Assembly (NCBI RefSeq): GCF_026151205.1
Contig: NC_087083.1
Span: 6,736,460 to 6,800,459 of the forward strand
Reading direction: 5' to 3'
Length of the DNA: 64,000 nt
From: Bolinopsis microptera
Lineage: Eukaryota; Ctenophora; Tentaculata; Lobata; Bolinopsidae
Position numbers and translations under genes: made by a program. The notes beneath the pieces are model-generated. The model saw only the letters and a program-made list of their open reading frames with translations. It had not been told where the DNA came from and did no database searches. Positions 21,475 through 53,443 of this stretch are shown in pieces (position 1 is the stretch's first letter; each line of letters starts with the position of its first letter).

Positions 21475-24400
21475 TTACACGTGGGCTGCTTTCTTCTTGA
21501 TGTTGGACCGCCGCCGTCTCCACAATAACATAGCAGAAGCTAAGATAATGATGCCGAGCGCTAGTGTACCACCCCCAGCTATAGCTAGTGGCATGTTTTT
21601 GTGACGTCCGAACAGGTCGAATAACTCTACTATGATCATTATTATTCCAACTCCTATCATCAACACTCCTGTAAGTTGTTTTCAAGGTTATAAAAAGTTG
21701 TGTTTTTAATATTATAATTCAACTGAATAAAGCAATTCCAGCATCTCATTAGTCATTGACATTAGAACGCAAAAAACAACCACATGTTATTTGACCTTCT
21801 AAAGATCTACAAACATGTAATTTTAGCCTTCGATATTTCTGAAAATTTGTAATACGACCAGCTGTATAAATAAGAAAAACAGAGTTTTCAAAAATATAGG
21901 GTTCTCGAGAACAGCGCTATACCAACACTCACCAAAAAACATAACACAGCTGTAACAATACATTCCGTCGTTCTGGGCCTCTCTGTCATAGTTCTGCACT
22001 GCTTTAGTGAAGTTGTATCTCTCTGGGTTCTGCATCTGATAAAACTTGGGGATATAACACATGTAAGGGCTAGCAGCGACAATCAGTCATTCACATAGAA
22101 ACGGGCAATGAGTTTAGTGCTCATCACTAAACGTGCTCTTTTGCTTGGTGCTTTTTGCATGCTTTAGTCTCTTATCATCACTAAACGGGCTCTTTTGCTT
22201 TGTGCTTTTTAGGCTATTTGTGCTTTTTATTTGCTTTAATCTGTTATCGTTGCTTGATTAGACTGGTAGGAGCTAACAAAAAAGGTTTGCAAATGATACT
22301 AGCCAAGTAAAACTTTCTTACAATTGGGCAGGTTCTGAGTGGAATGATCAAATATAGTCCGGTTAGGTAGAGATGCTGCTATTGTTACCAAAATGTGGCC
22401 ACAATCAGTTCTAAAGAAGTGACACCATCTAGGTTGGCATGGAGTGTAGGAAGCAGGGGAAGCATCGCCCCCCCCCCCCCCCCCCCCCTATAATATCTGG
22501 GCAAGGGGCCAAAAAGGGCCAACTTTTTTATTTAGGTTTCTAAAAATGTTCGGAAAAACATAGGTATTTTTCGGTTTTCGAAGTCCGCACCTACCCTTCG
22601 ATATGATTTTGGACTCGAGGGTTTCCCCTTGTGATGCGATGTCGGAAGACAGGCCTCGCGATTTGTCGCAGCAAACGTGAAAAATCGCGATTTGTCGCCG
22701 AGAATGGGAAAAAAGAGATTCTGAGCCAAAAAATCCAAACTGTGGCGCGAAGCACCAACAAAAATTTATAATTTGACCCCCCATGAAGAAAATTATTCCT
22801 ACACCCCTGGGTTGACATGAGTGACGAAAATGTCCCTAACGTTAGCTTTGCTTCATATTTTAACATCGCTGTTCCAAGGATTTGCTTCCATGCACCCTCG
22901 AATTGCTTTACAAAAACAATTAATCTGAAGTGTGCTTTGAAAAATATAAGAAGTAAATGTGCTTAAACCATAAAATTTGAAATCAAACGCATTTACATTA
23001 CTGCAATTATATAAAAGTATAAAGCTTTTTTTAATCTTGAGTTGCTGTTTTTGGCAGAGTATTTGATAAATAAATAAATTGCTCAATTAAATAATTAATT
23101 GATTAATAGTGTTCAAACACATGAAACATCCTACTCACATGGTAATAACTTTTGTGGTTCTGTGGATAATTGTTGGGGAATTGTTGCTGATAGAACATGT
23201 GTTCAGGGTTTCCTTGATCTATGAGTGGAGCGTTCATGTGGTACTGTTCTTGTAGAGGGTCGTAACCTGGCTGTTGGTTATACAGGTTCTCTCCTGCAGT
23301 GGGCGGTAATTAGGCGGTAATTAGGTGGTAATTAGGTGGTAATTATGTGGTGATTAGGTGGTAATTAGGTGGTAATTAGGTGGATAAAATATATCCTTGT
23401 GTATACATTTATTATTTCTACGTCTTCTTTTCTGTAAAAACTAAAAAATTGTTATTTGAAGCGATGCTGTATATTATTTCCATAATTTTTGAGGTAATTA
23501 AGCTATCGACAACTACAAAAATGGAAGGTATTCAAAATATTCCAGTCAAGGATCTCAATTTAATTGTATGTACTTAGTACTTCAACATAAGGTTTCACCA
23601 GAGCAATCGTCACCATTTCTATTGGTACTATTAACCAAGTAGCGCAAATCGAATAAACAATTGGTGATCAGTCAAAAGTTTGCGGAGGCGGTGCCAAATA
23701 AAATTACCAAGTATTATTCTTATCACTGAATATAACATGAAGGGTGCTCAAAGTAAACAATAAACATGGTGTGAAGTAGTGCTGATATAACTGGTAGACT
23801 GGTTGTTTTGCTGGAACAGTCAAGGAACATGACCTACAATAAACAAAACAAGTGTACTGGTGCTGTGCAAACAATAAGGCTATTACAAAATACAAACCTT
23901 GTCAGCAGGAATCATGCAAATCTTTGTTTATAAGTTTAAGTTTTCCCTACGATTACTATATTTCTAGAACTGGTTACTAGGTTACTAGAAGTGGTTACTA
24001 GAGTAATAAGTGTGAACCCTTTCTCACCGCAGGGAGATGCTGTCTCACCGTAGGGAGAAGAGTCGTAACTCTCGTAACTGTACGCAGGTGCACTCATCTG
24101 TTGAGAAGGAGGTCCTCCGAACTGGGGGTCTTGTGGGGGAGGGCCCCCAAGTTGAGGCACTTGCTGAGGATGAACACTGAGTTGGGGCGCCATTGCAGGA
24201 GACATTGGGCCAGGAGAAGGCGGGACCGACGACAGATCCTCTGGAGGTGGGGCGCTGGAAGCTTGCGGAGGAAGAAGGAGAGTGGGTGGGTGGGCTGGTT
24301 GCTGGGCAACAGGTTTCCCATCCACTTGATCAGCCGGAGCATCTAGAATACCACTGTTAACACGACACGCGCACATGCTAAATACAAACTAACAGTGAGG

Positions 24401-26683
24401 GTGTTATACGAAGTACGATAATAGAGAGCTTCACTTACTACAAAATATGACATGTTAATAAATACTGCTGTATTAAACTCTTCTACTACGGAGTTTAACT
24501 GTTAACCGAACTTAAACTAAGTATAAACATTAGTTAAAATACTAAAGAATGCGACTAACCGATGAGTTTCACCCTTATGGGATCTGAAGGTATTCGCTCC
24601 TCGTCGTACATCTCACCTTCCTGTCCCCCTTCTCCAATCTGCTCCGGGTGTGTAGCTAGTACACCCGCGTCAAACTGGGGGTGGGTGTGTGTAGTTACTG
24701 GTCGTGTAGTGGTGAGTGGTGGAGTGGTGATGACAATTAACGAAGAGAGAACGGTTTAGACTTTCATACAGTGCCATTATAACCATTGATTTGGTGGAAA
24801 TTTGTATAGTCGCATTATTCATGCGTATAATAATGTTTGGTCAATGCTTTGCGTAAACCATATTGAATATCCTACCTAAAATAGATGAATAAAATAAACG
24901 ACACGTATCTAAAACTCCTATCCATGTCATTGATAGTATAAATTCTTTGTATCAAAATATTTACAATCTTAAACAGTTCCACTGAAATCACAAAAAATCA
25001 CACTATAAAACGATATTAAATTCTGATTCTCTCTAAGTCTCTACGACTGTGATCAACTATTTGAGTTTCCAGACGCATGGCCCTTCCCTTTACTAGAAAC
25101 TTCGTGGTACACAAAATCAACGTCTTTTTTCAAAGCAGTAAAAGATTTCCTCCTAATCTCCTTCATATCCTGTATAATAGACTTGATGACTTTGTTGCTA
25201 TCAGTCAGTACGTTATCTGAGAACTCTCCATAGTTCTCGATCTGTTTCTTATGGGCCTCCAGAAATCGTCTTACAGCTGGATCCATATCCAGGTTACTGT
25301 TACCCAGGTTAATGTTGTTCAGGTTACTTTTGTCAGCCATTGTTGCTTTGTGGAGATGAGTACTAGATATTAGCGTCAGTTTCACTACTACACTTGGAAA
25401 GGAACTAAACCAAGATTGCAATAAAAAGGAACTAGTTATTTACCACAAAAACAATTTGTGAAGCTTCAGTATGGAAAAAAGATTTAGATTATGCTCGCAA
25501 AAAACGTTTCACGTAATAATTATCCGCGACCACGGGAAACACTAGATTGCAATGTGAATGGTTTCCTCTAAAGACTAACGAGCTTAAGCAGCAAAACCCA
25601 CTGCGCTAATTAGCAATTAACTGGAAATTCCCCGTCTGCCAAGGATAAAGCACCTGTCATGTTAGTTAGCACCATGGTGCCGTGATTAGCACCTTTTAAA
25701 TAACATCCAGTTGCTGTCTAGCTTGCTTTTATCTTTGCTAATTTTAGCAGATTTTTAGCCAATTTCATGGACGATTTGTTCATGTTGGTGCCAAATCGGT
25801 CGCCAACCTCGCACCTAAAATGGAAGCAGCTAGTTGCCAGAACAACCATTTCCTTCCCCCTAGTGGTGACGCGGGACAGGGTTAGTTAGACTTCTTTCCA
25901 AGATCACGATGTTTTTAATGAACCAAATCCTACCGAAGAGGTGCCGAAACCGACTCAAGCACTGCAGATCGCCACAGTATAAGGAACCGGAAACCTTAGC
26001 CTAAATTTGTATCATTTTCCAATCTCCAGATCACCTACCTGATTATTACGTTACCGTTACTGGTGGACCTCCTTACCTAGGAACCGTGGTAGAGTGAGTG
26101 GCCCACAAACAAACTATGTTTCCTGATTTACAATTTAACGATTAAAATGCTGTTGTCTCACAGAGAGCACTGTGTCCCCTGACTACCTCGTCCTGCTGGC
26201 TGAAGGGAGCAGTAATGAAGGGGTGCTAAATACTTATAGTTATACAAGTATAGAGATGAATAGTAACAATAACTTACTCTGGTCGGATCAGCAGAGTTGG
26301 GGGTCTGTTCTCCGTCCATTGGTATATCAGAGTCTGCACCTGACATCTGGGACATCTGGGCTCCCATCAAACCAGCACCTTGGATACCTGCAACAATTAC
26401 TATGTTAACAGTTGCCAGGGTAGCAGTTACCATATTAACAGTTGCCAGGGTAGCAGTTACCATGTTAACGGTTGCCATGGCTACTCCATTTCATTATCAA
26501 TACTACCTACAAAACATGGAAGGTCTATTAAAGGAATATTGAGAAGATAATAACTGTACAATACAATAATAACTGTAGCGAGAATTACCTGATGCAGCCT
26601 GTAGTAAGCGAGGGTCCATGTGGGAGCTAAGTGCTGTCGGTGTGTTGCTCGTGAGCGCTGCTCCGCCAACCGTATTCTGGATC
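21475..26683 (-). CDS. Constant 3' exons of the multi-promoter gene
   Basis: Exons on the minus strand: 26683-26589, 26387-26278, 24674-24560, 24342-24028 (or 24049), 23293-23139, 22069-21933, 21668-21475. The first four joins and the last keep frame. The 24342 exon is rich in Pro, Gln and Ser and ends with YSYESYDSSPYGE. The 23293 exon is Gln/Tyr/Asn-rich. The last two exons encode a Cys-containing membrane segment (YCYSCVMFF, then GVLMIGVGIIMIIVELF), a short charged loop, and a second membrane segment, then RRRRSNIKKK and the stop. Both ends are probably cytosolic. The join 23139 to 22069 does not keep frame (phase 0 donor, phase 2 acceptor), so a small exon is probably missing from my model. 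Confidence 0.7.
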
Positions 26684-29600
26684 CTGCAATGGAATTAGTT
26701 TAGTTTGTCTGCTAATACTTTGTCCATATTATGTGTTCATCTCGAGAGAGAGGATTATTTCTGGAAAACGGTGGTTTCCTACTCTCTATCTCTCTGAACA
26801 GTATACAGTAAGTGAGGGATCAGCATTGTTACTGACGTACTGAATGTAGACTGTAGAGATATTATAGTCCTAATGGACAAACGGCTATCGAATACACAGA
26901 CATTGAAAAAGATCTTGGAGTACATATCAATAGTAAGTTAGATTGGTCACATCACTGTGATATGATATACTCTAAGGCTAGTCAGAGGTTAGGCCTTCTA
27001 AAAAGAACATGTTACTTCACCAAGAACACTAAAAAACGTCGGGCCTTCTATCTATCTCAGGTTAGAAGTCATTTCGAACACTGCACAATTGTCTGGCGGC
27101 CTCATTCAGAAACCTCGGTGGAGAAACTTGAATCGATACAAAAAAGAGGCATCAAGTGGATCCTTAATGATATTTACTTGAGCCTTAGAGACAAAAAAAA
27201 AAGGTATTTCATAGCGTGTAAGGAACTAAATATCCTTCCACTCTCGGTAAGGTTTGATTACAAGGATATATTATATTTTCATAATATTTTTTATGACATG
27301 TCAGTTGTGACATTTCCACCTTACTTACGACGTTTCATGGGAAGTAGGTTAAGGCGATCACATCTAGACGATCTCAGTATGATTAGTGACATTTCTCCTC
27401 AAGTTCCACAAAACCTTACGTCAAGCCAGACCAGATGTTCAGGCATATCTAAGTCTTACTTTTACAGAGCACACATTCTTTGGAATAAACTCCCTTATGA
27501 ATTAAGGGAAATCTCAAGGCCATCCGTGTTTAAAACCCATTTAATTAAGTACCTCTGGACAGTTCTAAACGACCATATAACATCCTCTGACAGTTAAACA
27601 ATTTACCTTAATGTAACTATATTGTCTAAATATAAATTGATAAAAAGTATAATTAATAAAATATGTTAAATAAAGTGTGTTTATAATTATGATTTATGGT
27701 ACATTGTTATTTATTATATTTATATTTTAGGCTGTAACCTTATTAGTTCAATGGAATAAACCTAGCATGCCTTGGTTGCAGCATCGCTTCACTTATAGGT
27801 GCATTTAGGGCCCGATGTAATTGCTATGATCAGTTTACTGGTCAACTGGTGTTTCGGTGTCCCTTATTTTGTATACACTCGGTCACTTGTCAAGGCATGT
27901 AAGGTCATTCGGCGATATTTTCTTTGAAATAAAATGATGTATTTGTGTAACAATTTGAAAGTTTATTGATAAAAAATGGGAGACAGTTTATCGAGCAGCG
28001 AAAAATAGGTTTTTTTGTCTTTATGGTGGCCAACAATTGAAGGACGCGCGAAAAACTTTTTAACTATTGATACATTCTGAAATAGAAACTGTTTTTTGCA
28101 TGCTGATGCTTTAACTCTTTAACAAGTTGGCTTCAGTCCAAAAAGGAAACTAAGCATAAGCTGCTCTCTGATATTCAACCACAACAGATCATGTATGTTA
28201 GAATTAGTGATGTATGTTAGAATTCGTGATCCTCCCCCAAGTTACTATAGTAACAGACAGATTATAAATATATTTTGTTGCTATGGTAGGACGTTCTGTT
28301 GCCACAGTAACAGACTGTTGCCACAGTAACAGACTGTTGCCACAGTAACAGATCAGGTTGAAACTTACTCATCTTCAGGTTTATCGTCAGGCTCTTTAAA
28401 AGAGTAAACATGTTCGGCGGTGTTAACTCCCTGATGACCGTGAGCAGCTGTTTTGTGTGTTTTATTTGGAGTCCGCGGTTTAGTTTTGGCTTTAGCAGCC
28501 CATTGTTTAGCTAGTTTCTGTGCCTTGACGGGAGCCATGATAGCAGCAGCTAGTACGTGTTCAGGGGGCTGGAAGGCAGGTTTATCTGCTTCAGGGGCCT
28601 TGAAAGAGTGGTCCACTGTCTTGATGTGGCCTGAACTGATATTACCACGTTTAGCCGCTGTACGAGTAGCTGGCATACGTGACTTTGGTCTGGGTGTACT
28701 TTTAACATTCCCTCCCACGCTCTTCAGTCCATTAGCTAGCCCTTGTTTAGGTTTTCCTCCTCCTCCTCCTCTTCTGCCGCCGTGACGAGGCAGACAGGGA
28801 GCTGATCTGACCATGCGGCGATGCATGGTCCGACCCATGAGGGGGTTGTCATGACTACCATTACCAAGCCCTCTCTTGCTAGCAGAGCGGGGTCTGGGAG
28901 CGTCTCCAATAGTGGAGGAGCGGGGTCTGGAGCCGGTTCTAACGGGGAGGATCTGGCGGACTGAGGGGTTGGTAAAGGAGAACTTGTTGTGTGGTAGTGA
29001 GATTACTGACATATCACGTGCTGATCACATCTGGAACTTTCCTCAGAATAAGCAGCAACAAGGTGATTGTGTACAAGGTGTCATGTTAATCTGAGAGAGA
29101 GGCAATGCGGGGCGGAGTATCGGAGTCATGTGAAGCGGAGAGATACTGGAAAATATACACAAATTATGCGAATCAGATAACAAGTTTGTTGATGAAGGAG
29201 TAGATCATGAGAGTTAACAAGACTGTATTGTTTTGAAACTTGTGCATGTGAAGAACTAAGTCTCAGCTCGTTTACAGTATTTGTTGTGCATTGCTGCGTT
29301 TTTAAACTTTGGTTTAAAATCCTGCATGTAAAAGGACGACTGTATCTTTAATACATCACGTTCTTGTAGGAGCCCAGAAGGTCTTCTTATAGATATAGCT
29401 TGTTAAACGTACACTAGTTTCCGGATTGGGGTTGGGTTACTTTCCAATAATATAATAATAGAGTGCACTTCACACAGGTACAATTGTAGCAGACCAGAGA
29501 AGAACAGTTGCAGCACGCTTAAATTTTAGCGTATAACATTGCTGTGTTAAACTTAACAACGGTTTATTCTCAATTCTGATCTCATTGACGGTTTCTTTTA

Positions 29601-32600
29601 TGACAAAGAATGATTATGTTGTGTATTTTGAGGCAGGAAAGAAATATAACCATTCTTCAGAAAAGTTAAGAATTATATTGTATTTTGAGGCATGAAAGAA
29701 ATATAACCATTCAGTTATTGACGTCACTAAAAGAAGAGGCAAGTGGCATTAATTGATTGGAAAAATGAATCATTTAAAGCATTTTCTGTATATTTTCCAA
29801 CAAAAAGTCGTATATTTTCATAATCTAAATTATTAAATTTGCGGTGTGCGGTGGGTTGATATTGTAACATACTTTTTTTATCTGTTAACTGTTTCGCGCG
29901 AGAGTTTTAAAATTTCGAGTTTAAGAAATCTTCGTCGGAATCAAATACACCAAAATTGGGTATTCGCTTTCGCGAAATTACCTGAAATGAAACATAAAAT
30001 GCTCTTATTTAACGTCTTTAAGATGACTGAGCAAAATACGAACCATAAACACTGATCCGCAGCTTCTAGATAACGTTTACATTAATACAAAACAAATAGG
30101 ATACCATAACAAGACCATTACGTTTATTGATAGAAATTGGATTTGGAAAAATAAAATAAAATAAAATCGGAAAAAATGTTTACCCGCACAGTTCTGTGAC
30201 CAAGTGAGATGTTGTTGATTGTTTTTGTAGTTAACACGCGGAATGATATTTTAGAATTTTAAATATCTTTCATTTTGTTATTGACTTTCTTTTTGTGGTT
30301 CAGTCCAACAGTTGTCATTTTTGAAAATATTGTATAACTATTTTGTTGAATTACTAGTTAATAAATAGTATGGTTAGTGGTTGATAGTAGAATTAGTAAT
30401 TTATTATATTAAAAATTATATTAAAAGTAGTTATTGTTATTAAATATAATATTAAATGAAGTAAATATTATTAAGAATATAGTATTAAAAGCAGTGAATA
30501 GTATTAAAAACAAACAAAAGTAAGAGTGAAACTCACTTCTCCAGGTCAATGTGTTTGTTTTTGGAGCTGGTGACGCTTTCAAGTGATATAATAGGGGACA
30601 GGATAGACTTTTTCACTACTTTGACTATTTTTAATAGAGGGTCTGCTTCTTTTGAATTTTTACCTAAAGTTGTCAAATCCACGTGTGATCTAGATTGGAT
30701 CTTTTCCCTTTGATTGCTTTGTAGATTTTTACCTAAAGTATTTGATGCAGGACTATTAGACCTATTAACTGGACTAGGAGTTGGTTTTGGCTTTCTCGAT
30801 AAGTTCATAGAGCTTCCGTCGAACTTCTTTACGAGGTTCGTTGAGTTGTTAGTGTTTTTAGTAAGACCGAAATTAGCATTACTGTTATCTTCACAAGCCA
30901 TGAAGATGTTAGTCATACTTCTGTCCAGAGCCATTCTATCAGTAGCCACAGAGAGCCCCCTTATTAACCCGGCCCCAGAGGAGGGACCTGCTAGGTTATC
31001 TCTAGAGAGAATGCCAGGGTTCCTCATGATCTCTCTTTGGAGAGTCTCTGGGAAAGTCCCCGACTGTACTGACTGTTTAGCGGTTTAATTAAACTGATGG
31101 ACTCTCTCCCTACTAAATGGGAGTTCCTCGTGTTCACTGATATCCCCCCACCAATAGTGCGTCCTTTGGGTTTAGGTTTAGCGCCGCCAGCTTTAGCGAC
31201 GCCGCCTTTCTTAGCGCCTTTAGCGCCTCCCTTAGCGCCGCCACCTCCAGCTCGTTTAGCGCCACCTCCACCAACTCTCTTCGCTCCACCAGGTTTTGGG
31301 GCAGGCATATCAAATGAGAACTAACAATTTCAAAAACTAGTGTAAGATTAGACTGAGAGAGAAATGATAACGTGAAAAACAGTGCGCTTATAATACAATG
31401 ACTACTTATAGCATGTGGTTCACAAGCACGATTATCTAGCTAAACTCGCTCGCAATAACGTTACTGAGTGTTTTTCTTAGAAATATACTCGGTTCTTAAT
31501 CGACAAAAGTATGCAGAAATAGCAGTATAAAGTAGACTGTATTACATTTCATTTGAATTGTAAAACTTTATGATGAATGATGATGTTATTTTAATTCATA
31601 ATTATTCAAAGTGATTGAAAAGTGTAATATCATATCATCCAAAACAAAACAATTCACTTTCTTAACAAGCTGCATGCAAATAGCACTTGTCAGAACAGTA
31701 GCATGCAAAGGTCCCCTAGGTTCAAGAATAAGAGGGTCTACTAGGTTCAAGAACAAGAGGGTCCTCTAGGTTCAAGAACAAGAGGGTCCCCTAGGTTCAA
31801 GAACAAGAGGGTCCCCTAGGTTCAAGAACAATTAGGTCCTCTAGGTTCAGGGACAAGATACTAAAACAGGTTCAATAACAACTAACCAGGTAAATAACTT
31901 CAAGTTACATTCGTGGAGTAACAAATCTCATGCACACACATAAAATAAGGGTCCACAATATAAACATGCAACTCTACCTCGCTAGCTCCCCGACCTTCAA
32001 CCTCTCCAGATCCCTGAAGTCCTGGAACTTCATTTTCTCCAGGTCCCTCATGGTAAGCTCTCTATGTACATCATCCTCCGTCGCCTCCATCTTCCCCTCC
32101 TTCTTATGCTTCATCCCAGTGAGTAGAGAGCCTGCTACTGCTCCCTTCACCATGTCACCTACACTCCACCCACTCTTCTTCTTCTCATCGTTATCATTGT
32201 CTGCCTTCCCTCCCTGGTTCCCGGAGCTGTAACCCTTACTCTTCTTGCCCTTTATCAACATCATGTCTCGCCCCTTTTTCAGATCTGGTTTTTTTGCATC
32301 TTTGCCCTTCTTACCATCCTTCGTTCTGTAATTGTGTACACTTGCTCAGGTGTAAAAGGGAAATGCTCACTGGAGTCTCTCCTCACCACACCACACTACT
32401 GAGGACTTTAAGTTCTCATCCTCACCACTCTTTCTCTGCGTTCTTTCACTGACAACTTCTCTCTCTTTCGCGATGCTAACAGACAAAGCAAACATACGTT
32501 TTCTCTTCACAATTACACACATTTATTATACATTTCTTGTTAATTTAAGCGAAAGAAAATTATAAAAATATAAATAAACTTCTTACTTACTTGGAGTTTT

Positions 32601-44600: not shown

Positions 44601-47600
44601 ATAAAAAAATCATGCTAACTATTCAAGTATGATCACAAACCTATTAAACTGAGTTGGAGCAAGTGTTTTCAGCCAGCCTGATCCGTATTGACGTTCTAAC
44701 ATCATCAGCTCTCTAGGAGTCATCTGGAGATGCGAAATTTTAGAGATACAACATTTTAGAGATTAGAAACAGACGAAAGTTAATCAGGCGCGAATACCAT
44801 GGTAACTGATAACCATGGTAACTGATTACCATGGTAGCTGATAACCTTGGTAACTGATTATCAAAGTAATTGATAAGTGATAACCATGGTAACTGATTAC
44901 CATGGTAACTGATTACCATGGTAGCTGATAACCATGGTAACTGATTACCATGGTAACTGATAACCATGGTAACTGATTACCATGGTAGCTGATAACCATG
45001 GTAACTGATTATCAAGGTAATTGATAACCATGGTAACTGATTATCATGGTAGCTGATAAAAGTTGTTTACCTTTGTGAGATCTAATCGGTCCATCTGAGA
45101 GAGTGCAATGTTTCTAGAGGTGCCCCCGGGCATATCGTTATTACCACCAGAGTTCTGACTGAAAATATAGGAGGTTAATAAAACAGTCACAAGAGCGTCG
45201 TATAGTGTCTTATTTGTTACTTAGTGAAAGTCAGCTTAGTAATTGTAGCATGAGGAGCAATCAAATGTAAGGTTTCAGTAAGTTGTCAGCGTAAGTAATG
45301 TGTAATTCTAGTTGTTGTAAGTCTCGTACGGTAAGTCGTGTAAGTCGTATCTCTCCAGCGGATTGTTAGGAGCGTCAGTCAATCTACCGTTCCTTCTAGT
45401 TCTCCACAGTAACTTTGTTAAAGCTCCCCCCATGAACATTCCATTAGTGAAACTAGGGAAAAACTATTTTTTAACTACTAAATTATTTGTTGACAACTAA
45501 ATTATTTTTTAACTACTAAATTATTTTTTAACTTCTAGATTATTTTTTAACACCTAAATTATTTTTTAACTACAAATTAAATTACGGTTGTCACACGAAT
45601 CGATCAACCGACGCCCATGCGATTTTTTATCTAAAAATGCCGGGTAAATCGAAGTTATTTACTATTTATATTTAAACTCGTATAGCTGTAGCCGTATTGT
45701 AGCCTCTAAATTTTAAAGCTGATAAAGCTGTACAAAGTAGGGAAGTGTGGTCTGTATAAATACTCTCTGATTATTATATGACTATAAGGAATTATACTAA
45801 TAGAATTAATGTTTAAAGTCTATTGTCTGCTTTAAAGCTTTATTTGAAGCTGTGAGCCTACTGTCTTGTAAGTTATCCTGTTACTTTGTAGGGCGTCCTA
45901 TTGTTTTACTGTGTTACTTTTCTACTGTTCTACGGTATCATTGAACCGTATTTTGTCTAGCAAGAAGTGATAAATCTGCAGAATTTATAGAAATTCCACA
46001 GTGTCTGAGTATAATAATATTGGTAAACTAATTTCTACGCTCTGAACAGTGACACTAAAATATAAGTAATCCAGCGTCCTTTAGATCAACTACTACAACA
46101 AATAAAACGTGTGCTCCTTCATAAATACTACTAACCTCGCATTTCTCATCATTCTCTCGTCTCTCTCGTCTGAAAAAGAAAACACAATCTTAGAATAAAA
46201 AGTAAAAACTTGTTAGTAATGCTTAGTTAGTTCATACCTGCTTTGGTATATTAAAGTATAAGTAACAGTGAACAATCATAGCTGAAAAAGGACGATTAAA
46301 AGCTTGTTAGCTAATTAGGTAATTAGCTATTCAGAGTATTTGCTAATTAGCTGATTAGATAGATGCTACATTGAATCAATTATTTCATCTCTGTAACCAG
46401 AAATGAATCCATAACTGTATAATGCTGTAAAAGTGATGACTGAAACATTTTACCATCACAGGTTCGGGTTTCCAGCTCCATGAAGTAATAAAGCATTTTA
46501 CTTCGGTCTTCGGAGGGCTTTTTACAGTGTAGTAAGGAACAAGCAGGTAAAAATTAGTAGTGATGAGTATATAAATCAAAATACTACCCATACGATGCTT
46601 GCAAGTGAAGTATACAAATAAAGGTAAAAACGTTGTAGCGAGCTGAATGATTACACTGAATAAATGAAAGTAAAAACGTTGTAGCGAGCTTTGTGATTAC
46701 AATAAGAATATACCCGCCGCGCTATATAAGGTTTGTATAAGATAGGTGCTAAGTGCACCACCAATCCAATTAGGGATATTAATCAGAATTACACTTTCAG
46801 ATATGAGGGAAGTTGTGAGATTTATATAAATGCTGCGATTAGATTTCTTTTTTGTACATTATTTTCTATGTTTCCATAGCATTCAAATACAGTTTTTCAA
46901 ATTCCATGCAAATCACAGTTAGTTTACTTTTAGTAGGACGGTATTCCTGATTCTCAACACGGTATTCCTGATTCTCAACACACCTCTATAGTTTGTTAGT
47001 GTTCTCACTTCTCAACATGGTCACACATTCTCAACAGGGTCACATATTGGGTTAGTGTTCTCAGATACTGGACCATAACACGCTCCTCTCAGTACTATCT
47101 GACTTAGTATATAGCAGATGAGTAGTTGTAGGTTTATAACCTACCAAGACGCGCGCCGAGTTGGACTCGTCGGCGGTCTCGAAACAGACAATTTACGAAT
47201 ATCAACCGTTAAATGAGTAGATGCACATTTAACACATGATGATCACAACAGAACCACACTCAGGACTATTTCACTGTAGATTTCACTTTGACTATCATAT
47301 TTCACTATAGATTTCACTTTGAAGCGTTTCACTGACTACTCACTTTTCCTCCCGCCAGGAGAGACACGATTGTTAGAGTCACGATTGTTGTCACGGTTAC
47401 TTTGGTTACCATGGTGACCGTGACCACTACGCTCATCTCTTGACGACCTCTCGTTGTAGGATAGATCTCTGGACTTAGAAACTGTGTAAAGAAAAAGAGA
47501 TGACCGCATGATAACATCTCACATAACTGATTCAAGGGATACAAGTTATAATATGCAGACGAAATAAACAACACAGTTTGGTAGTCTACCAGCATTTTCT

Positions 47601-50600
47601 ACTATTTATGTTCCGCCTACTGGTTAGGGGAGAAACTGTGACGAATTATCAATTAAACTCATTTTTAATTAACAGTTGATATAAGTGTTGTGGTTTCATT
47701 AATTAACCATTACCGCTCAGGCGCCTTGGCAACATCCCAATTATTTTATAGTGTTTTAAATCTGGGGAAGTTTCCGTACTACAAAACATTTAGATAATTT
47801 GTGGTTATTTACCGTCGATATATAATTTGTGTACTATAATAATTGGTGATAATAAACTATAGAATTTAAATTAGGGTCTAAAGAAGTTAAATTAAAGCTG
47901 CAGTGTGATTTTATATTAGCTTAATGAAACTCTATGTCTTTAATGTAGAAATATTTTATGTATTGGTTTTGTTTATAAGTTGAAGTTGAACAGCAAACTT
48001 GCCACATAGATCAAGGTTCGGCTGGAGGATTAAATCAACATACTAGTGCTGTATAGCTATAAGATATTAGATATTAAAGAGATAAAGGCTGCTGTTAGAT
48101 ATATGCTACATTAAGAGTGGCAACAGTCACTCTGCTCTGTTTTAAGCTACTGTTAGTGCCACTGTTAGCTACACACAATCCACGTGGTGCCCATATAAGG
48201 AGCGAACTTACGTGAACCACCACCTCGTCCTCCAAACCCTCCACCTGGTTACAACATCTTCACAATGGGTTACAAGGGGTTGCTAGGGGTATTAAGGGGT
48301 TGCTACAGGTTACTAGAGGTTGCTGCTGGTTCCAGGTGTTGCTGGGGGTTGCTAGGGGTTGCTTTGGGGTTTTCTAGAGGTTGCTAGGGGTTGCTAGGGG
48401 TATTAAGGGGTTGCTACAGGTTACTAGATGTTGCTGCCGGTTCCTAGGGGTTGCTGGGGATGCTAGGGGTTGCTGGGGGTTTTCTAGAGGTTGCTGCCGG
48501 TTCCTAGGGGTTGCTGCCGGTTCCTAGGGGTTGCTAGGGATTGCTGGGGGTTCCTAAGGGTTTTTAGGGGTTGGTAGGGGCAACTAGGGATACAAACCGG
48601 ACAATTGTCGGAAACGTATCTCACTGGCTTGGGTTACTATAAACTTCTGCTGTGTTCGAAGGACTCATTCTCTCATTATATTATAATTTCTGTTCAATTT
48701 GCTCACTTTCAATTTCACACTTCTCAAAGCCAGCACAACTACCACACTTGCAGTATCTCTACTATTTGATCAAATCAAAATATAAAAGCAGTATCTTCAG
48801 CTGTAATCAGATCCACGAATGGAAGGTCGGCAAAATCATTTTCAGCTATAAAATTCGTTAAAATCGGAGGTTGAAGACTCAATTGAAGATAATACAAAAT
48901 GATAAGGTATAGAAATTAATGTCTAACTTTAGCTATTCAGTAAAAAACCTTTAAAATAAGTGTTTAGCTGCTTGCATATGTAAAGTTTGATAAACTATTA
49001 TATAGAAAGGATCACTAACCTCCACTACCGTTGTTTTTGTTCGGAGCCATCCCCCTCGTAACATCGTGTGCTGTTTTCAGAGCCACTGCAGTTCTTACAG
49101 TACTCTGAACAGAAGCAGCTCCAACTGCTTTAGCCCCCGCTCCAAGACCTCCAGCTTTACCCGCTGCGCCGATACCGCCAGTTTTAGCAGCTCCCCCGAG
49201 ACCACCTGATTTTCCTACTCCGCCTCCAAGTTTGCTTGCTGATGAGCCAGCTTTGGCACCAATCCCACTACTAGAACCAGCTTTCGCACCAAGTCCAGGT
49301 TTTGAAGCGCCCGCTAATCCCGGTTTCGCTCCCATCGCTCCCGGTTTCGCTCCCATTGCCCCTGGTTTCGCTCCCATTGCTCCTGGCTTGGCACCAGCAG
49401 CGCCTGGTTTTGCAGCACCCATTCCTCCAGGTTTTGCTGCACCCATTGCACCAGGTTTTGCTGCACCCATTCCACCAGGCTTTGCTGCACCCATTCCACC
49501 GGGTTTCGCTGCACCGATCCCACCGGGTTTCGCTGCACCCATGCCACCTGGCTTTGATCCTGAAGCCCCAGGTTTTGCTCCAAGGCCACCAGGTTTTGCA
49601 GCTCCAATGCCTCCAGGCTTGGCTCCACCCATAGCCCCAGGTTTTGCACCGCCAAGGCCACCAGGTTTAGCAGCAGACCCAGGTTTTACAGGAGTTTTAG
49701 CACCAAATCCACCTGGTTTTGCTGCGGATGATGACTTGGCACCGAAGCCTCCAGGCTTTGCTGCTCCGCCTGGTTTAGATCCTAGTCCTCCTGATGACTT
49801 GTTTCCACCAAGACCTCCTCCTGGTTTTGAGGAGGATGAAGACTGTTTCCCGAACCCTCCTCCGGGCTTAGAGCCCATTCCTCCACCTGATTTAGAACCC
49901 ATTCCCCCAGACTTGGCACCTATACCGCCAGGTTTCCCCGGCTGCTTGCCGGCCGCCCCCTTGCCGGCTCCGACCCCACCAGGCTTTCCTCCTCCTTTAG
50001 CGTTCTTGTCATTCTTACCACCAGCTCCTAATACCATCACTTACATCAGGAGACACTGTGAAGTAAGGGAGGTTAATCAAACTGTTCAAAACATTGCTCC
50101 AAACGTATTCAATCAAGCAACATAAAACCGATCAAATATAAAAACGAGGAAGGAAAATTAAAACGTAATTGAGATTGGATAAGAATCACAATAGTTTTGA
50201 CAAATTTATGTCAGCACAAACAAATTAAAAGCGCGTGATACGATATCAGCTAACAAGGAATAAGGATCCACTACATGACCAGTAACTATTAGTATTAATT
50301 ATATTAGGAGGATTATACGATAGAACTAAACCAAGATCCAGCAAGTCTGTCAAAAGGAGTCACGTGACGCCCATATAAGGAGTTATGTATACCACGTGAT
50401 CACCACGTGATGCCCATATAAGTAGACAAGTGTGTCAAGAGCAGTTGTGACAGCAATGAAGTCAGACCACAATGTGGAGTAGTGCGTGTTAGAGATACAA
50501 ACCTATAAAAGTCAGCACTTTTCAGAGCATGTAAAAATTAAAACACGTAAAACGCGGAATTTATAGCGGTCTACCAATGGAATGCAATGAGCTACGTGTT

Positions 50601-51597
50601 TCAGCGAGAAAAGTCTGTATTTTGACAGGTAAACTTACTTACATGGTGGTAAGTGTGGTGGAAGCCGAGAAGTTGCTAATTTGATAAATTAACGAACTCA
50701 CTACTTCGAGGCAGATAGAACAAACTTTGTCCTTACATATTCACACCTCACTGATAGTAATATACCGTACAACTGGCTTTTCATGCTAATTGGTATGTAC
50801 CAGAATATAAACTGCTTTCGTCAAGTTACGGCAAGAAAAACATTCTAGACAACATTATTTGTAAATTTAGCTTAATAAAAGAAAAAAAGAGAATAAAATA
50901 AAAAAGCTCGATTTTGCTTTGCTCGAGAGCTGTTCAAAATTCAAAAGAATATTATGATCTAACAGGCAACTGATTATTGCGTTTAGTGTCTAGTGTCAAC
51001 TTCCAATTGGTAGGATTGACTAAACGATAGAAACGCCCCAATATTAGCGGACTAAGGTACTGTATGATATGCTAACGTAGCAACCATTATATACAAACTC
51101 CGACGTAATACCCTACATAGTGTGTGAAATGTCAGACGTTATACCGAATAAACTAAACTAACTCAATCAAATGATATTTGTAAATAGATCAAAATGACAA
51201 GCCAACTATATTCTGGGGTTAGCTAAAGTATACAGTATTATATACTGAATAGTATATAGTATATAGTATGCAGTATTTAATCCCACTTAAACGTTCAAGG
51301 TTTAAACTGACAAATAGTATAGACGTTATAAGGTTCTATACAAATATTTGTGAAGGAGCTGTGACAGTTTGACGTGTTTATTATGAAATAATAATATATT
51401 TTAGATAAAATAATCAGCAAACTGGTAATATGATTTCTTAATGTGTCAATAATTCATTACTTTCGAAACTGATAACGAACACGGCAAGTAGTGACTTGTA
51501 TTAAAATGTGGCATATTGGAGAACTGATGTCTGGCTCTCAACTAATGCCCAAACAACGTATACTTGTGAATTGCCTTCTCCCTCCCTATAATAATAA

Positions 51598-51644
<47 letters not shown>

Positions 51645-53443
51645 CAGGGTACGACTGTTTGGTATATCAAGCTGTGGCTGTGTAGATTGAGAGCAATCCT
51701 CACCTAGACTATAATTCTATTAAACCATTACAGCAACAATGATTCAGCTAGAATTTAGTAAATAAAAAAATTTGTTAATGAAATAATACTCTGACCCAGG
51801 CATAACGCCGTGTAAATAGCTTAAAAGGGTTAGAAGGCCACCTGTTCTCCGAGAGAAGAACGCCAATCGAGTTTTAATAAAATAAATATTTTCATAAATA
51901 TTTTCAAAATAACTGATCTTTGAAAAATCGAATCCACGATCTAGAGCCAGTTTGGACAACAACGTATTCGTAATTTCATTTTATTTCTACGCAGTATCCA
52001 TTTGGAAATTGTTTCGCATACAAACAAAATGCTTTACTTCGAATTACCGTATAGTGCACACCATGCGTGATAATGAACAATAAGTTAATATTATATGAAG
52101 ATAACTGTATAACTATTAGAAGCAATACCTGTTTACGTGCACAGATACAGACCCAACTAACTAACAGTGGAACTGAGGAATGTGGGTTTGATTAGTGCGT
52201 GTGTTTCCATAACAGCATAACATAATGTTTCCATAACACATAACGTTTCCATAACACATAATGTTTCCATAAGGAATGTGTGAAGAAGATCACCCCTCCC
52301 TCCCTCCCACATTGCTAGTGTGAACTAAGCCAGGGAAATGCAGAATGTAGTAAAGACTTTACAGTTACAGTTACATGGCGTGATCAGGTAAAACACACAA
52401 AACTGAAGCTCCAGAACTGAAGTTCCAGAACTGAAGCAGTGAAGTGTGCGACTGTTCCAATACTATTGCAGTGTAGTCAATAGCCAATAGTGCGTGCTCT
52501 GCAACACTCCAGCAGTGGAGTCAATAGTGTGCTCTGCAACACTGCTGATTTGGTGAGTAACTTCCTAATTAATTAGATACGTTTATTGTTGCACACACAC
52601 TAGATATAATATGTAGATATTGCTAACATATCATTAATCACAAGCTGCAAGGCAAATGTTGGCGAATAGTGGCGAGTTTGACTAATAAGCTGACGATAAA
52701 GCGCATGTTCTAATGCTGGTAGCTCCATATTTGGTACAAGAGAGTCAATCATATCCTTATATGGGCATCACGTGGTCAAGAGACAGCCAAAAATCAAACG
52801 TAATGTTTTGACGTATCAGAAAACCTTTTGACGCACAGTTCGCTCACAATAAACAGTTGAACGTCTGAGCTAAGAGAAAATGTTCAAGTGTAGGTGATTG
52901 CGCGCTGTTTTGCATTACACAATATTGGGAGACCACGTGATGCCCATATAAGGTAGCTTGACACGTGATGCCCATATAAGGTAGCTTGACGCATGTATCC
53001 TTGTAAGATATTAGGAAGAGCACAATTTTCATTATGAGATTAAGGGAACACGGTAAACTTTGTTTTCTACAACAGGTTGATTGTTTTCAGATAACCCATC
53101 TGTGAGCAATTACAGCTGCCCTAATGGAGATTTTTTGCTGGACTGGAGTATGAATAAGGCAGCAGCGATACTGCAAGAGCGGTCGAACTGTAAGTTGACC
53201 CAGTAGAGGAATCTACGAATCTCTCCTGAGTAAGTGGCTAAACTAGCAGTTGTGTGATGACGGCACTTGATGCATGATGACGTCACGATGGCTAAACTAG
53301 CTGCTATCACAAAGAATGTACTTACGGGCTCGTCTCACTTTTAGTCCCACCCGCACTTTCCTCTCTGAGTTCCTCTTCATGTGTCTCTGTGTCTCTGTTC
53401 CCCTCCGTTCTTTATTCCCTCGCATCCAGCCAGGCAGTGACAT
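21475..53443 (-). CDS. Large multi-promoter gene: variable N-terminal exons, common two-TM C-terminus
   Basis: I infer one gene from matching splice phases. Five start exons lie upstream (53443, 50037, 33285, 31308, 29012). Exon sets ending at 44641, 31978, 30537 and 28369 all finish with a phase-2 GT donor, and the common exon 26683-26589 starts in phase 2, so each joins in frame (codon completed as AGG, AAG or GAG). The common part encodes about 372 residues: Ser/Pro/Gln-rich, then Tyr-rich, then two membrane segments and a basic tail. Neither the variable nor the constant part is a family I know. The layout is like UGT1 or clustered protocadherins. Without transcripts, separate overlapping genes are not excluded. 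Confidence 0.6.
22440..22815. repeat. TIR element with CCAGGGGTGTAGGAA ends (copy 1), in an intron
   Basis: One end is GTGTAGGAAGCAGGGG at about 22446 and the other TTCCTACACCCCTGGG at about 22796. It contains a C run of about 19 at 22470-22488 and a block of AAATCGCGATTTGTCGC words. A longer relative lies at 39632-40691. It has no transposase, so it is non-autonomous. Confidence 0.75.
23303..23383. repeat. 11-bp tandem repeat next to a splice acceptor
   Basis: About seven copies of GGTGGTAATTA, starting ten bases upstream (in gene sense) of the acceptor of exon 23293-23139. Variants GGCGG and TGTGGTG are present. Confidence 0.85.
25053..25340 (-). CDS. Small single-exon protein, possibly KxDL-like, nested in an intron
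   Basis: A 95-residue frame with a good start context (ACAATGG) and a stop at 25053-25055. An AG acceptor-like site lies 29 bases before the ATG. The protein is hydrophilic with a helical, coiled-coil-like middle. Near its C-terminal third it has LKKDVDFVY followed by a KGKG stretch, which resembles the KxDL signature and the end of that domain in KXD1, a small subunit of lysosome-positioning (BORC/BLOC-1-related) complexes. The spacing differs by about two residues and the motif has Val for Leu, so the assignment is weak. It lies on the same strand as the host gene, between exons 26278 and 24674. It could be an independent gene, a retrocopy, or an alternative exon of the host. Confidence 0.5.
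   Translation of the reverse strand: MADKSNLNNINLGNSNLDMDPAVRRFLEAHKKQIENYGEFSDNVLTDSNKVIKSIIQDMKEIRRKSFTALKKDVDFVYHEVSSKGKGHASGNSNS
26401..26476. repeat. 30-bp tandem repeat in an intron
   Basis: About 2.5 copies of a 30-bp unit beginning ATGTTAACAGTTGCCAGGG, right next to the acceptor of exon 26387-26278. An open frame across it encodes repeated ATVNMVTATL and is not real. Confidence 0.8.
26860..27597 (+). pseudogene. LINE reverse transcriptase C-terminal fragment
   Basis: From about 26860 an open frame continues past the ATG at 26962 to the stop at 27595-27597. It encodes KDLGVHINSKLDWSHH, then a SHFEHCTIVW motif and a WNKLPYELR-type motif near the end. These are the C-terminal landmarks of Jockey/CR1-like LINE ORF2. 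The catalytic box and upstream domains are absent, so it is 5'-truncated. It lies antisense inside an intron of the large minus-strand gene. The open frame is intact, so insertion was recent or it has decayed little. Confidence 0.85.
27598..28295. other. Intronic, non-coding
   Basis: AT-rich sequence after the LINE fragment, probably partly its 3' tail (to about 27670). Nothing else recognised. Confidence 0.4.
28296..28352. repeat. 19-bp tandem repeat, 3 copies
   Basis: Three exact copies of CTGTTGCCACAGTAACAGA. It lies 16 bases beyond the donor of exon 29012-28369, within the intron. Confidence 0.9.
28369..29012 (-). CDS. Variable first exon D (basic, Arg/Ser/Pro-rich)
   Basis: The ATG at 29012 follows an in-frame TGA 12 bases upstream, so this exon starts translation. 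It encodes 214 residues plus two bases and ends GATGA|GTAAGT, phase 2, which joins the acceptor at 26683 in frame (Glu codon). The protein is strongly basic, with RPRSSTIGDAPRPRSASKR near the start, a GRRGGGGGKPKQ stretch mid-way, and an Ala/Lys-rich helix near residues 150-180. No known domain was recognised. Acceptor-like AG sites lie just before the ATG. Confidence 0.7.
29013..30536. other. Non-coding, AT-rich (between variable exons C and D)
   Basis: This would hold the promoter for exon D. It contains a direct repeat of about 38 bases (about 29618-29656 and 29670-29710, TGTATTTTGAGGC type). No gene recognised. Confidence 0.45.
30537..31308 (-). CDS. Variable first exon C (Lys/Gly repeats, then Ser/Asn-rich), with a probable 65-base intron
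   Basis: The ATG at 31308 starts a Gly/Lys/Ala-rich run (GGGGAKRAGGGGAK type) ending with GGGIS at about 31138. The next frame (31072-30537) opens without an ATG of its own need: splicing GTGAAC at 31137 to CAG at 31073 removes 65 bases and keeps frame. A second possible donor (GTAGGG at 31113) would also keep frame. The second part is Ser/Asn/Lys-rich (about 178 residues) and ends GAGAA|GTGAGT, phase 2, fitting 26683. No known domain was seen. If the small intron is wrong, a frameshift near 31030-31140 would separate two frames. Confidence 0.6.
31711..31860. repeat. 25-bp tandem repeat
   Basis: About six copies of a unit containing CCCTAGGTTCAAGAACAAGA, with CTC/CCC variants. It lies between exon C and exon B2. 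Confidence 0.9.
31978..32325 (-). CDS. Second exon of set B (or shared internal exon)
   Basis: It follows TTACAG at 32326 and opens in phase 2. It encodes 116 residues: Lys/Gly/Asp-rich at first, then SGWSVGDMVKGAVAGSLLTG and a charged helix with ELTMRDLEKMKFQDFRDLERL. It ends GCGAG|GTAGAG in phase 2. Joined to exon B1 (AA|A) the lysine-rich sequence runs on without a break, which supports the pair. Because A6 also ends in phase 2, this exon could be included in set-A transcripts too. Confidence 0.65.
32591..33285 (-). CDS. Variable first exon B1 (GGGMKPGG repeats)
   Basis: The ATG at 33285 follows an in-frame TGA, and the exon ends CCAA|GTAAGT in phase 2. It encodes 231 residues. The first half is Gly/Met/Lys/Pro repeats (KMGGKMG, then GGGMKPGG four times in a row); the second half is mixed polar with a Lys-rich end (FGKDKKGENS). 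A strong acceptor (CCCTCTGCAG) 39 bases before the ATG suggests a separate leader exon. The complementary proline-rich open frame on the plus strand has no splice signals and is an antisense shadow. Confidence 0.7.
33286..34180. other. Non-coding, upstream of variable exon B1
   Basis: AT-rich. It should hold the exon B leader and promoter. No further structure beyond a few repeated TTAAAGTAAT words near 33960-33985. Confidence 0.4.
34181..34288. repeat. 11-bp tandem repeat
   Basis: About nine copies of AGGTAGATTAC, with GGAAG variants at the left and AAGTAGTTTAC in the middle. Confidence 0.9.
34289..36900. other. Intronic or intergenic, no clear gene
   Basis: Mostly AT-rich. A 70-codon minus-strand frame (35661-35446) has no ATG but encodes one hydrophobic segment (VGKTVSFVVFIVDFILFVIW) and a Cys-containing tail, and follows a CAG. 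It might be a last exon of an unseen gene; I cannot support it further. Confidence 0.35.
36901..39631. other. No confident gene; short open frames
   Basis: A plus-strand frame from 37424 contains DRKIRELLRRHSKG, and about 300 bases on a similar LKIRELLKN word appears (37880-37915), interrupted by stops. This may be a degenerate duplicated exon. Tandem CACACTGTCACA words lie at 37590-37680. Otherwise AT-rich. Confidence 0.35.
37693..37712 (+). promoter_or_regulatory. Composite E-box/CArG motif, copy 1
   Basis: CACGTGATGCCCAAATAAGG: an E-box (CACGTG), four bases, then CC(A/T)6GG, the CArG consensus. It lies about 4.4 kb upstream of exon B1 on the gene strand. Confidence 0.5.
39632..40691. mobile_element. 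TIR element with CCAGGGGTGTAGGAA ends (copy 2), with internal tandem duplication
   Basis: The left end is CCAGGGGTGTAGGAA and the right end TTCCTACACCCCTGG. TAACTA flanks both sides as a possible target duplication. Inside, a segment of about 241 bases (about 39955 to 40440) is repeated 2.25 times, differing by a few bases, which creates paired open frames that are not genes. It is related to the intronic copy at 22440. No transposase was seen. Confidence 0.85.
40972..43090 (-). repeat. Dispersed repeat, inverted relative of 11205-12982 (copy 2)
   Basis: It carries the same sequence as the SIDT intron repeat in reverse orientation, with the foldback arms at its left end (about 40979-41130 and 41342-41492) separated by about 210 bases instead of 25. 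Its right end carries extra material not in copy 1: two GC-rich hairpins at 42883-42940 and a 17-bp tandem (AAAGGGGGTATAATAGT, three copies) at 42962-43017. The small open frames here are repeat-borne. Confidence 0.85.
42883..42940. repeat. Two adjacent GC-rich hairpins
   Basis: A perfect 16-bp stem with a TTC loop (42883-42917) is followed by a perfect 8-bp stem with a TTC loop (42922-42940, GTGCACGC/GCGTGCAC). The block is far richer in G and C than its surroundings. Confidence 0.9.
43124..43199. repeat. 22-bp tandem repeat
   Basis: About 3.5 copies of a unit with GTGTCGGTAACCAGTAGTAA. Confidence 0.85.
43200..44195. other. Intronic or intergenic, no gene
   Basis: AT-rich sequence with repeated GGTAAATCGG words near 43750-43860. 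No gene recognised. Confidence 0.4.
44200..44306. promoter_or_regulatory. Cluster of CRE-like TGACGTCA sites
   Basis: Six TGACGTCA or near copies within about 110 bases, five of them in a tandem of about 18 bp with CATAACTTA spacers. This could be a response element for CREB/ATF-type factors or a simple minisatellite that happens to carry the motif. Confidence 0.5.
44641..48244 (-). CDS. Shared middle exons A2-A6 of the multi-promoter gene
   Basis: Exons on the minus strand: 48244-48212 (33 bases), 47481-47344, 46169-46136 (34 bases), 45158-45071, 44723-44641. Phases 1, 1, 1-to-2, 2-to-0, 0-to-2 all agree. They encode Gly/Arg-rich FGGRGGGS, then a polar stretch rich in Arg, Asn, Ser and His, then LSQMDRLDLTK and MTPRELMMLERQYGSGWLKT, a helical segment that looks the most domain-like. 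They follow both start exons at 53443 and 50037 and lead to 26683. Confidence 0.75.
44797..45060. repeat. Palindrome-bearing minisatellite filling an intron
   Basis: Copies of about 15-16 bp containing AACCATGGTAACTGAT or its relatives, each carrying the palindrome CCATGG. The array takes up most of the 347-base intron between exons 45071 and 44723. Confidence 0.9.
45448..45575. repeat. About 19-bp A/T-rich tandem repeat
   Basis: About five copies of ACTACTAAATTATTTTTTA, in the intron between exons A4 and A5. Confidence 0.85.
48181..48200 (+). promoter_or_regulatory. Composite E-box/CArG motif, copy 2
   Basis: CACGTGGTGCCCATATAAGG, eleven bases from the donor side of microexon 48212-48244. 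It carries one base change from the other copies. Confidence 0.5.
48262..48595. repeat. G-rich tandem repeat (GGGGTTGCTA type)
   Basis: Imperfect repeats of GGGGTTGCTAG and GGTTCCTAG on the plus strand, over about 330 bases. Many runs of three to four G make G-quadruplex structure possible. It lies in the intron between exon A1 and microexon A2. Confidence 0.85.
49020..50037 (-). CDS. Variable first exon A1 (KPGG repeat protein part)
   Basis: The ATG at 50037 follows an in-frame TAA six bases upstream, and the exon ends GGAG|GTTAGT in phase 1. It encodes 339 residues, mostly units of 8-10 residues such as GAAKPGGMGAAKPGG, with Gly, Lys, Ala, Pro and Ser making up almost all of it. It is strongly basic with no predicted fold; the last 40 residues are more mixed. 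An acceptor (CTTCACAG) ends at 50059, so a leader exon may exist; GTAAGTAAG at 50642 is a candidate donor. The antisense Pro/Ala/Phe-rich frame is a shadow. Confidence 0.75.
50361..50423 (+). promoter_or_regulatory. Composite E-box/CArG motif, copies 3 and 4
   Basis: CACGTGACGCCCATATAAGG at 50361-50380 and CACGTGATGCCCATATAAGT at 50404-50423 (last base differs from the CArG consensus). They lie 320-390 bases upstream of the start codon of variable exon A1. Confidence 0.55.
50642..51600. other. Possible leader exon of A1, otherwise no gene
   Basis: A donor-like CACCAT|GTAAGTAAG on the minus strand at 50642 could end a non-coding exon beginning around 50760. The rest is AT-rich with no gene recognised. 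Confidence 0.35.
51601..51648. repeat. (TC)n microsatellite
   Basis: About 22 TC dinucleotides with one TTTC interruption. Confidence 0.95.
52755..52774 (-). promoter_or_regulatory. Composite E-box/CArG motif, copy 5 (minus orientation)
   Basis: The minus strand reads CACGTGATGCCCATATAAGG, a perfect copy. It lies about 550-690 bases downstream (gene sense) of variable exon 53443. Confidence 0.55.
52934..52981 (+). promoter_or_regulatory. Composite E-box/CArG motif, copies 6 and 7 in tandem
   Basis: Two perfect copies, 28 bases apart, followed by a third decayed copy. The repeated unit adds TAGCTTGA to the motif. Confidence 0.55.
53326..53443 (-). CDS. Variable first exon E (short, basic)
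   Basis: The ATG at 53443 starts a 39-residue basic frame that ends GCCC|GTAAGT in phase 1, so it can replace A1 and join microexon 48244 in frame. Residues are rich in Arg, Lys, Thr and Glu (GNKERRGTETQRHMKRN type). An acceptor-like CTCAG lies about 20 bases before the ATG. It is short, so coding potential is only moderately supported; the matching phase is the main evidence. GTGAGA at 53339 is a competing donor in another phase. Confidence 0.5.

Follow-up and report, generated by a model that had tools for sequence, protein, structure and literature searches.

A candidate ctenophore gene with several alternative, putatively leader-capped first exons and one common end

Based on reading frames, donor sites and composition at one locus of the ctenophore Bolinopsis microptera, we propose that a single gene may carry several alternative, leader-capped first exons in front of one common end; the chances that this reading holds are about even. 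The locus lies on the minus strand of a window of 64,000 nucleotides (the whole stretch of DNA that was analysed), whose positions are used throughout. Its exons were rebuilt from the raw sequence. Seven constant exons (26683-21475) have start exons at 53443, 50037, 33285, 31308 and 29012 upstream, and the models joined from all five starts run open to the common stop, with lengths of 519 (A), 819 (B), 702 (C), 577 (D) and 569 (E) residues. An earlier sequence-only reading had named these five starts, the donors 44641, 31978, 30537 and 28369 and the acceptor 26683, and all of them were located where it had placed them. The exons are listed below, with splice sites scored in bits by weight tables not built from the host species.

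53326..53443, minus strand: start exon A; phase 1 donor, fits 48244
49020..50037, minus strand: start exon B1, which contains KPGG repeats; 3' splice site before 50055; donor in phase 1
48212..48244, minus strand: set B exon 2; weak acceptor, -1.3 bits
47344..47481, minus strand: set B exon 3
46136..46169, minus strand: set B exon 4; phase 2 donor
45071..45158, minus strand: set B exon 5; phase 2 to 0
44641..44723, minus strand: set B exon 6; phase 2 donor, weak, 3.5 bits
32591..33285, minus strand: start exon C1, Gly/Lys-rich; GTAAGT donor in phase 2; 3' splice site before 33318
31978..32325, minus strand: set C exon 2, Lys-rich; phase 2 to 2; weak acceptor, -0.8 bits
31152..31308, minus strand: start exon D1, Gly/Lys-rich; inferred phase 1 donor; 3' splice site before 31352
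30537..31047, minus strand: set D exon 2; GTGAGT donor in phase 2
28369..29012, minus strand: start exon E; GTAAGT donor in phase 2; 3' splice site before 29090
26589..26683, minus strand: first constant exon; acceptor of 4.1 bits in phase 2, donor of 8.3 bits in phase 1
26278..26387, minus strand: constant exon 2; phase 1 to 0
24560..24674, minus strand: constant exon 3; phase 0 to 1
24049..24342, minus strand: constant exon 4, Pro/Gln-rich; phase 1 to 1
23139..23293, minus strand: constant exon 5; phase 1 to 0
21933..22035, minus strand: constant exon 6, in which the first hydrophobic helix begins; phase 0 to 1
21475..21668, minus strand: last constant exon, with hydrophobic helices, an RRRR...KKK tail and the stop; entry phase 1

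The constant exons follow one another in phases 2-1, 1-0, 0-1, 1-1, 1-0, 0-1 and 1-stop and form one open frame of 355 residues, somewhat shorter than the approximately 372 residues given before, with a poly(A) signal at 21410 (AATAAA/ATTAAA pattern; AATAAA as read). The claim that 26683 is entered in phase 2 was borne out, as only this phase reaches the constant chain: in phase 0 the exon runs into a stop, and in phase 1 it stays open, but its phase-0 exit meets a stop in exon 26387. The phase-2 exit ascribed to the four set-end donors was confirmed for 44641, 31978, 30537 and 28369. The start at 53443 had been grouped with these exits; its donor is actually in phase 1, which suits 48244 instead of 26683. 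In the case of the set drawn from 31308 to 30537, both ends were found, but the two lie in different frames and an extra intron is needed. The intron chosen here, 31151-31048, has a phase 1 donor of 6.0 bits and a phase 1 acceptor of 5.0 bits; many others fit the frame, and an assembly indel could be an alternative cause of the frame break. Each of the five starts shows a purine at position -3 and is preceded by an in-frame stop at a distance of 6-27 nt, in agreement with the former statement that the ATGs are preceded by an in-frame stop or an acceptor. Frames, donors and the constant chain are established at the locus. Points that count against one gene with alternative first exons are upstream ATGs (two before E, one each before B1 and C1) and the weak splice sites at 48244 (-1.3), 32325 (-0.8) and donor 44641 (3.5).

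Coding signal was assessed by codon scores built from 24 Ras-family ORFs of the same genome, some of which are near-identical. The score is best in the claimed frame for eight of the ten variable exons scored (B1, B3, B5, C1, C2, D1, D2 and E; the two small B exons at 48244 and 46169 were left out), with a margin of 0.176 vs 0.175 in D exon 2, and for five of the seven constant exons (2, 3, 4, 6 and 7). Another frame scores higher in constant exons 1 and 5, in A and B6 and in the ORF at 25341. The coding signal of the first constant exon is weak, at 0.077 in frame vs 0.288 in another frame. The synonymous component is close to zero for many of the exons (B1 0.021, E 0.014, D1 -0.031), and the codon signal therefore derives mostly from amino-acid make-up.

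The composition of the fronts is established as well. Every variable part is strongly basic, carrying a net charge of +17 in A, +51 in B, +35 in C, +24 in D and +28 in E. When 426 ORFs of at least 70 aa were ranked by their richest 70-residue Gly+Lys stretch, C1, B1, D1 and C2 took ranks 1-4 and E the sixth, in a set of 201,480 bases that combines the window with loci fetched for other reasons, includes some overlap and is not a random sample. Homology among the variable exons was sought in 13 segments and 78 pairs, leaving out the Gly/Lys-rich N-terminal parts of B1, C1 and D1; the best shuffle P was 0.0075, and none survives multiple tests. A 15-residue ungapped match between the end of B and the end of C (DLTKMTPRELMMLER / DLEKMKFQDFRDLER) was rejected, as it falls outside the 14 best of the 78 pairs and is not significant. 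A genome search with four of the front exons, namely C1, C2, D exon 2 and E, gave no second copy.

The constant part has a net charge of -14 and contains 21% Pro+Gln. Two hydrophobic stretches, at about residues 280-314 and 316-342 (19-residue windows above 1.5), are followed by RRRR and KKK. Under the positive-inside rule, both ends of the protein would lie in the cytosol. The last 96 residues resemble small two-helix membrane proteins such as TMEM100, whose Pfam model they match (E 2e-6, 27.9 bits); 17 further Pfam models match the same stretch with E from 0.0019 to 1.7. The TMEM100 score stays under the curated cut-off of 34 bits, and the large N-terminal part is without a match in the Pfam search. 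We take the last 96 residues as a probable two-helix anchor and not as a sign of TMEM100 family membership. An exon-by-exon genome scan with the TMEM100 model, which may miss weak matches, gave no match, a search of solved structures yielded nothing (best E 1), and our literature search retrieved no paper on the TMEM100 Pfam domain in invertebrates. The genome searches (264.65 Mb assembly, 232 contigs) found no second copy of the constant exons (seven matches, one per exon) and no paralogue of the last two elsewhere in the genome.

Predicted 3' splice sites stand 18-78 nt upstream of four of the five starts. The best site within 120 nt reaches 9.3 bits at 50055, 7.6 at 33318, 9.2 at 31352 and 10.1 at 29090, and 4.4 bits in the case of 53443; among background 120-nt windows of the minus strand, 16.2% reach 7 bits, 10.4% 8 bits, 6.9% 9 bits and 3.0% 10 bits. 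These sites suggest that four of the starts may be joined to something upstream, either a spliced leader or a non-coding 5' exon, since cis-splicing of a 5' exon would produce the same picture. As a control, Ras-family loci were taken from 151 matches, and 24 of 28 gave a start. An acceptor of at least 7.5 bits precedes six of these 24 starts (two of the six being one repeated gene), compared to 9.9% among the 1541 windows of the background. This agrees only weakly with a raised acceptor rate, and an upstream acceptor is not the rule. The genome holds many Ras-family small GTPase matches, which cluster at 12425539-12482154 of the contig labelled C1, mostly on one strand.

In the ctenophore Hormiphora, a spliced leader ending in AATTTGAG is present on 56% of long reads, which is a lower bound, according to excerpts of PMC8527503. 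Since leader trans-splicing is common in ctenophores, the likely way of choosing a start changes. The 22-letter Hormiphora leader pattern followed by GT (at most three mismatches) has 43 matches in the genome vs 20 for the reversed pattern. Twelve of the 43 belong to one tandem array on contig C8 (7889746-7895419; copies about 513 bp apart, each matching the leader at three mismatches), and several others are one dispersed repeat. Six forward matches (L054-L059) lie on one strand within 83 kb of contig C13 (12811466-12894453). Their leader is near that of Hormiphora and ends in AATTTGAG, followed by GTAAG in four copies or by GTTAAG/GTAAAG. Next comes an inverted repeat, CTGGTTCTC...GAGAACCAG, exact in L055 and imperfect in others; TCTTTTGG stands after this first inverted repeat and is followed by a second, imperfect one. 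The consensus fold of the six copies is weak (-4.4 kcal/mol) and without clean hairpins, and the copies vary by many single-base gaps, which may reflect decay or assembly error. Rfam assigns them no family at its cut-off, the best result being SmY in one copy (25.5 of 39 bits, E 0.011). We take the six copies as putative spliced-leader RNA genes or decayed copies of such genes, which by themselves would mark the host very probably as a ctenophore. Mitochondrial COX1 gave no match in the assembly. A second dispersed repeat of high identity (L060-L067, on contigs C1, C2, C4, C6, C7 and C12) also ends in AATTTGAG and continues with GTGTG; this repeat may represent a transposon or a leader-like element of another kind.

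In the proposed mechanism, transcription would begin upstream of one among the four or five start exons, and a spliced leader would be joined to the 3' splice site directly before it (exon starts 50055, 33318, 31352 and 29090). The start set would be cis-spliced from its own phase-2 donor to 26683, skipping the start exons that lie between, and the transcript would continue to the common stop. The products would vary in their front part only. The fronts would be basic, rich in Gly, Lys and Pro and probably disordered, while the common back would be acidic and Pro/Gln-rich, with a terminal two-helix membrane hairpin and both ends cytosolic. As a guess, each front would act as a disordered basic tail that recruits different cytoplasmic partners to one membrane. 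It is the use of 26683 by every set, the addition of a leader, the topology and the function that we infer here. Because four or five basic fronts are all compatible with one membrane-anchored end, one gene may make several proteins, i.e., it may yield a small protein set through exchange of the front end. With little confidence we go one step further and suppose that the choice of the leader-accepting splice site, and not the promoter alone, might select the basic front for the common membrane anchor. It is also unlikely, in our view, though worth stating, that we would here be dealing with a variable-first-exon cluster run by trans-splicing, with fronts alike in charge and composition and without traceable tandem duplication.

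Protein diversity can arise from first exons clustered upstream of a constant end, a layout best known from vertebrates. In the vertebrate UGT1 and clustered protocadherin loci, the variable first exons are tandem duplicates of a homologous exon and the last exons are constant; each variable exon has a promoter of its own, and the mRNA links one of them to the constant exons. The comparison with these loci made in the sequence-only reading holds for the layout: several start exons stand in a row on the same strand, each set has the same exit phase, and phase-compatible start exons lie upstream of one constant set. It does not extend to ancestry, since the variable exons of the ctenophore locus align without significance and have composition alone in common, being alike in charge and Gly/Lys content. 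In addition, the fronts encode basic low-complexity tails instead of enzyme or cadherin domains, and there are four or five of them, some sets having more than one exon. A different parallel is offered by C. elegans sma-9, where alternative leader trans-splicing yields different 5' ends (excerpts of PMC2904332). Similarly, a 3' splice site near an internal start could accept a leader here and give a different front. The ctenophore locus differs from sma-9 in having four such predicted sites, each with its own front exon. Our literature search retrieved no paper on alternative first exons in ctenophores, and we make no wider claim.

If the proposal is true, it would suggest that a variable-first-exon layout can arise without tandem duplication, and leader trans-splicing would gain a part in protein diversity. 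For the latter, a study on trypanosomes reports no widespread evidence, according to the excerpt of PMC6821157. Long-read RNA exists for ctenophores (PMC8527503 and PMC10232365, in the parts at hand), and the model is therefore directly testable.

Several rival explanations have to be weighed against one gene with alternative first exons. That the region holds mostly chance ORFs of low complexity next to one ordinary gene at the constant exons is highly improbable. Low-complexity ORFs are long by nature and antisense frames are open too, yet any ORF of at least 180 aa appeared in just one of 100 first-order Markov shuffles. Three of the six minus-strand ORFs of this length in the locus end exactly in GTRAGT, compared to 0.87% of the 8258 stop codons of the window (binomial 1.3e-5); two of the six are overlapping ORFs of the tandem repeat 39949-40546. 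In phase 2, the donors GTAAGT and GTGAGT contain an in-frame stop codon, at which any ORF leading up to them necessarily terminates; the ORF end at the donor and phase 2 consequently form a single observation. The earlier judgment that the matches are hard to explain by chance agrees with these figures. Quite unlikely, too, is one long gene from 53443 or 50037, in which the ATGs at 33285, 31308 and 29012 would not be starts, and C exon 2 and the end of the 30537 ORF would be optional cassettes. Phase 2 entry is possible at 32325, at 31001 (8.9 bits) and, inside C1, at 32845 (10.5 bits); the join of B to C2 is open, and the phase 2-2 exons (32325-31978; 31001-30537) can be chained to one another. 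This long gene is at odds with C1 and D1, which lie upstream of these acceptors and are open, best in frame and Gly/Lys-rich, and with the in-frame stops and purines at -3 that mark the starts.

A group of separate genes running in parallel, some of them nested within introns of others, is somewhat unlikely in our estimate. Here, set B would be a gene of its own ending at 45308, some other sets would end in 25392 or elsewhere, and the constant gene would use only E, or E and D, as first exon. Two terminal exons speak for this arrangement:

45308..45452, minus strand: rival terminal exon of set B; phase 2 entry, ends in a stop; acceptor 1.0 bits
25056..25392, minus strand: possible nested gene or rival last exon; acceptor 25392 in phase 2, 5.1 bits; 112 codons to the stop; codon score 0.256

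The former has a codon score of 0.306, best in frame, although its acceptor is weak. The latter includes a 95-codon ORF (25341-25056) on the same strand, in the intron between constant exons 2 and 3, which has no Pfam match better than E 0.14; 25392 could serve as last exon of any set. Moreover, nested genes are many in Hormiphora, some of them parallel to the host gene (excerpts of PMC8527503). A scan of the stretches B-C, C-D, D-E and below E for phase-2 acceptors of at least 3 bits that open at least 25 codons to a stop gave 51 candidates. Six of them have a codon score above 0.15: 25392, 24254 (inside constant exon 4), 22496 and 22487, all below E, and, in the B-C stretch, 40766 and 37038. 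The C-D and D-E intervals hold three candidates, none of which reaches this score, and C, D and E are thus left without a good last exon of their own ahead of the following start. Separate genes are further disfavoured by the basic, Gly/Lys-rich make-up that B, C, D and E have in common. Frame, donors, composition and the scarcity of better terminal exons thus support the earlier proposal of many starts on one putative two-TM end.

Some further elements of the window deserve mention. The 20-mer CCTTATATGGGCATCACGTG, a CArG-like box plus CACGTG, has 1240 copies in the genome at no more than one mismatch and none for a reversed control. Nine copies (at most one mismatch) lie in the window, at 37693, 48181, 50361, 50404, 52755, 52934, 52962, 55316 and 60999, eight of them on the strand of the gene, and tandem arrays occur elsewhere in the genome. 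Most of 30 copies read have unrelated flanks, which indicates a unit of about 20-21 bp with sharp edges. A role as common promoter or loop anchor was rejected, as the 20-mer occurs near A and B, once 4.4 kb upstream of C, and not near D or E. It does not match the described ctenophore loop motif either, which is GC-rich with two CpGs according to excerpts of PMC12221973. Insertion with target duplications was likewise rejected: flank matches of at least nine were seen in five of the 30 copies, compared to 0.5% for flanks paired between loci and 9.3% at random sites, and the rate at random sites leaves this reading unsupported. Three ORFs, 26857-27597 on the plus strand and 3331-4410 and 62129-62752 on the minus strand, are putative retroelement fragments as judged by eye, and the first of them lies antisense within the intron that separates E from the first constant exon. 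At 946-1537 of the window, a 14-bp unit is repeated in 42 copies (98% match), with three frames open.
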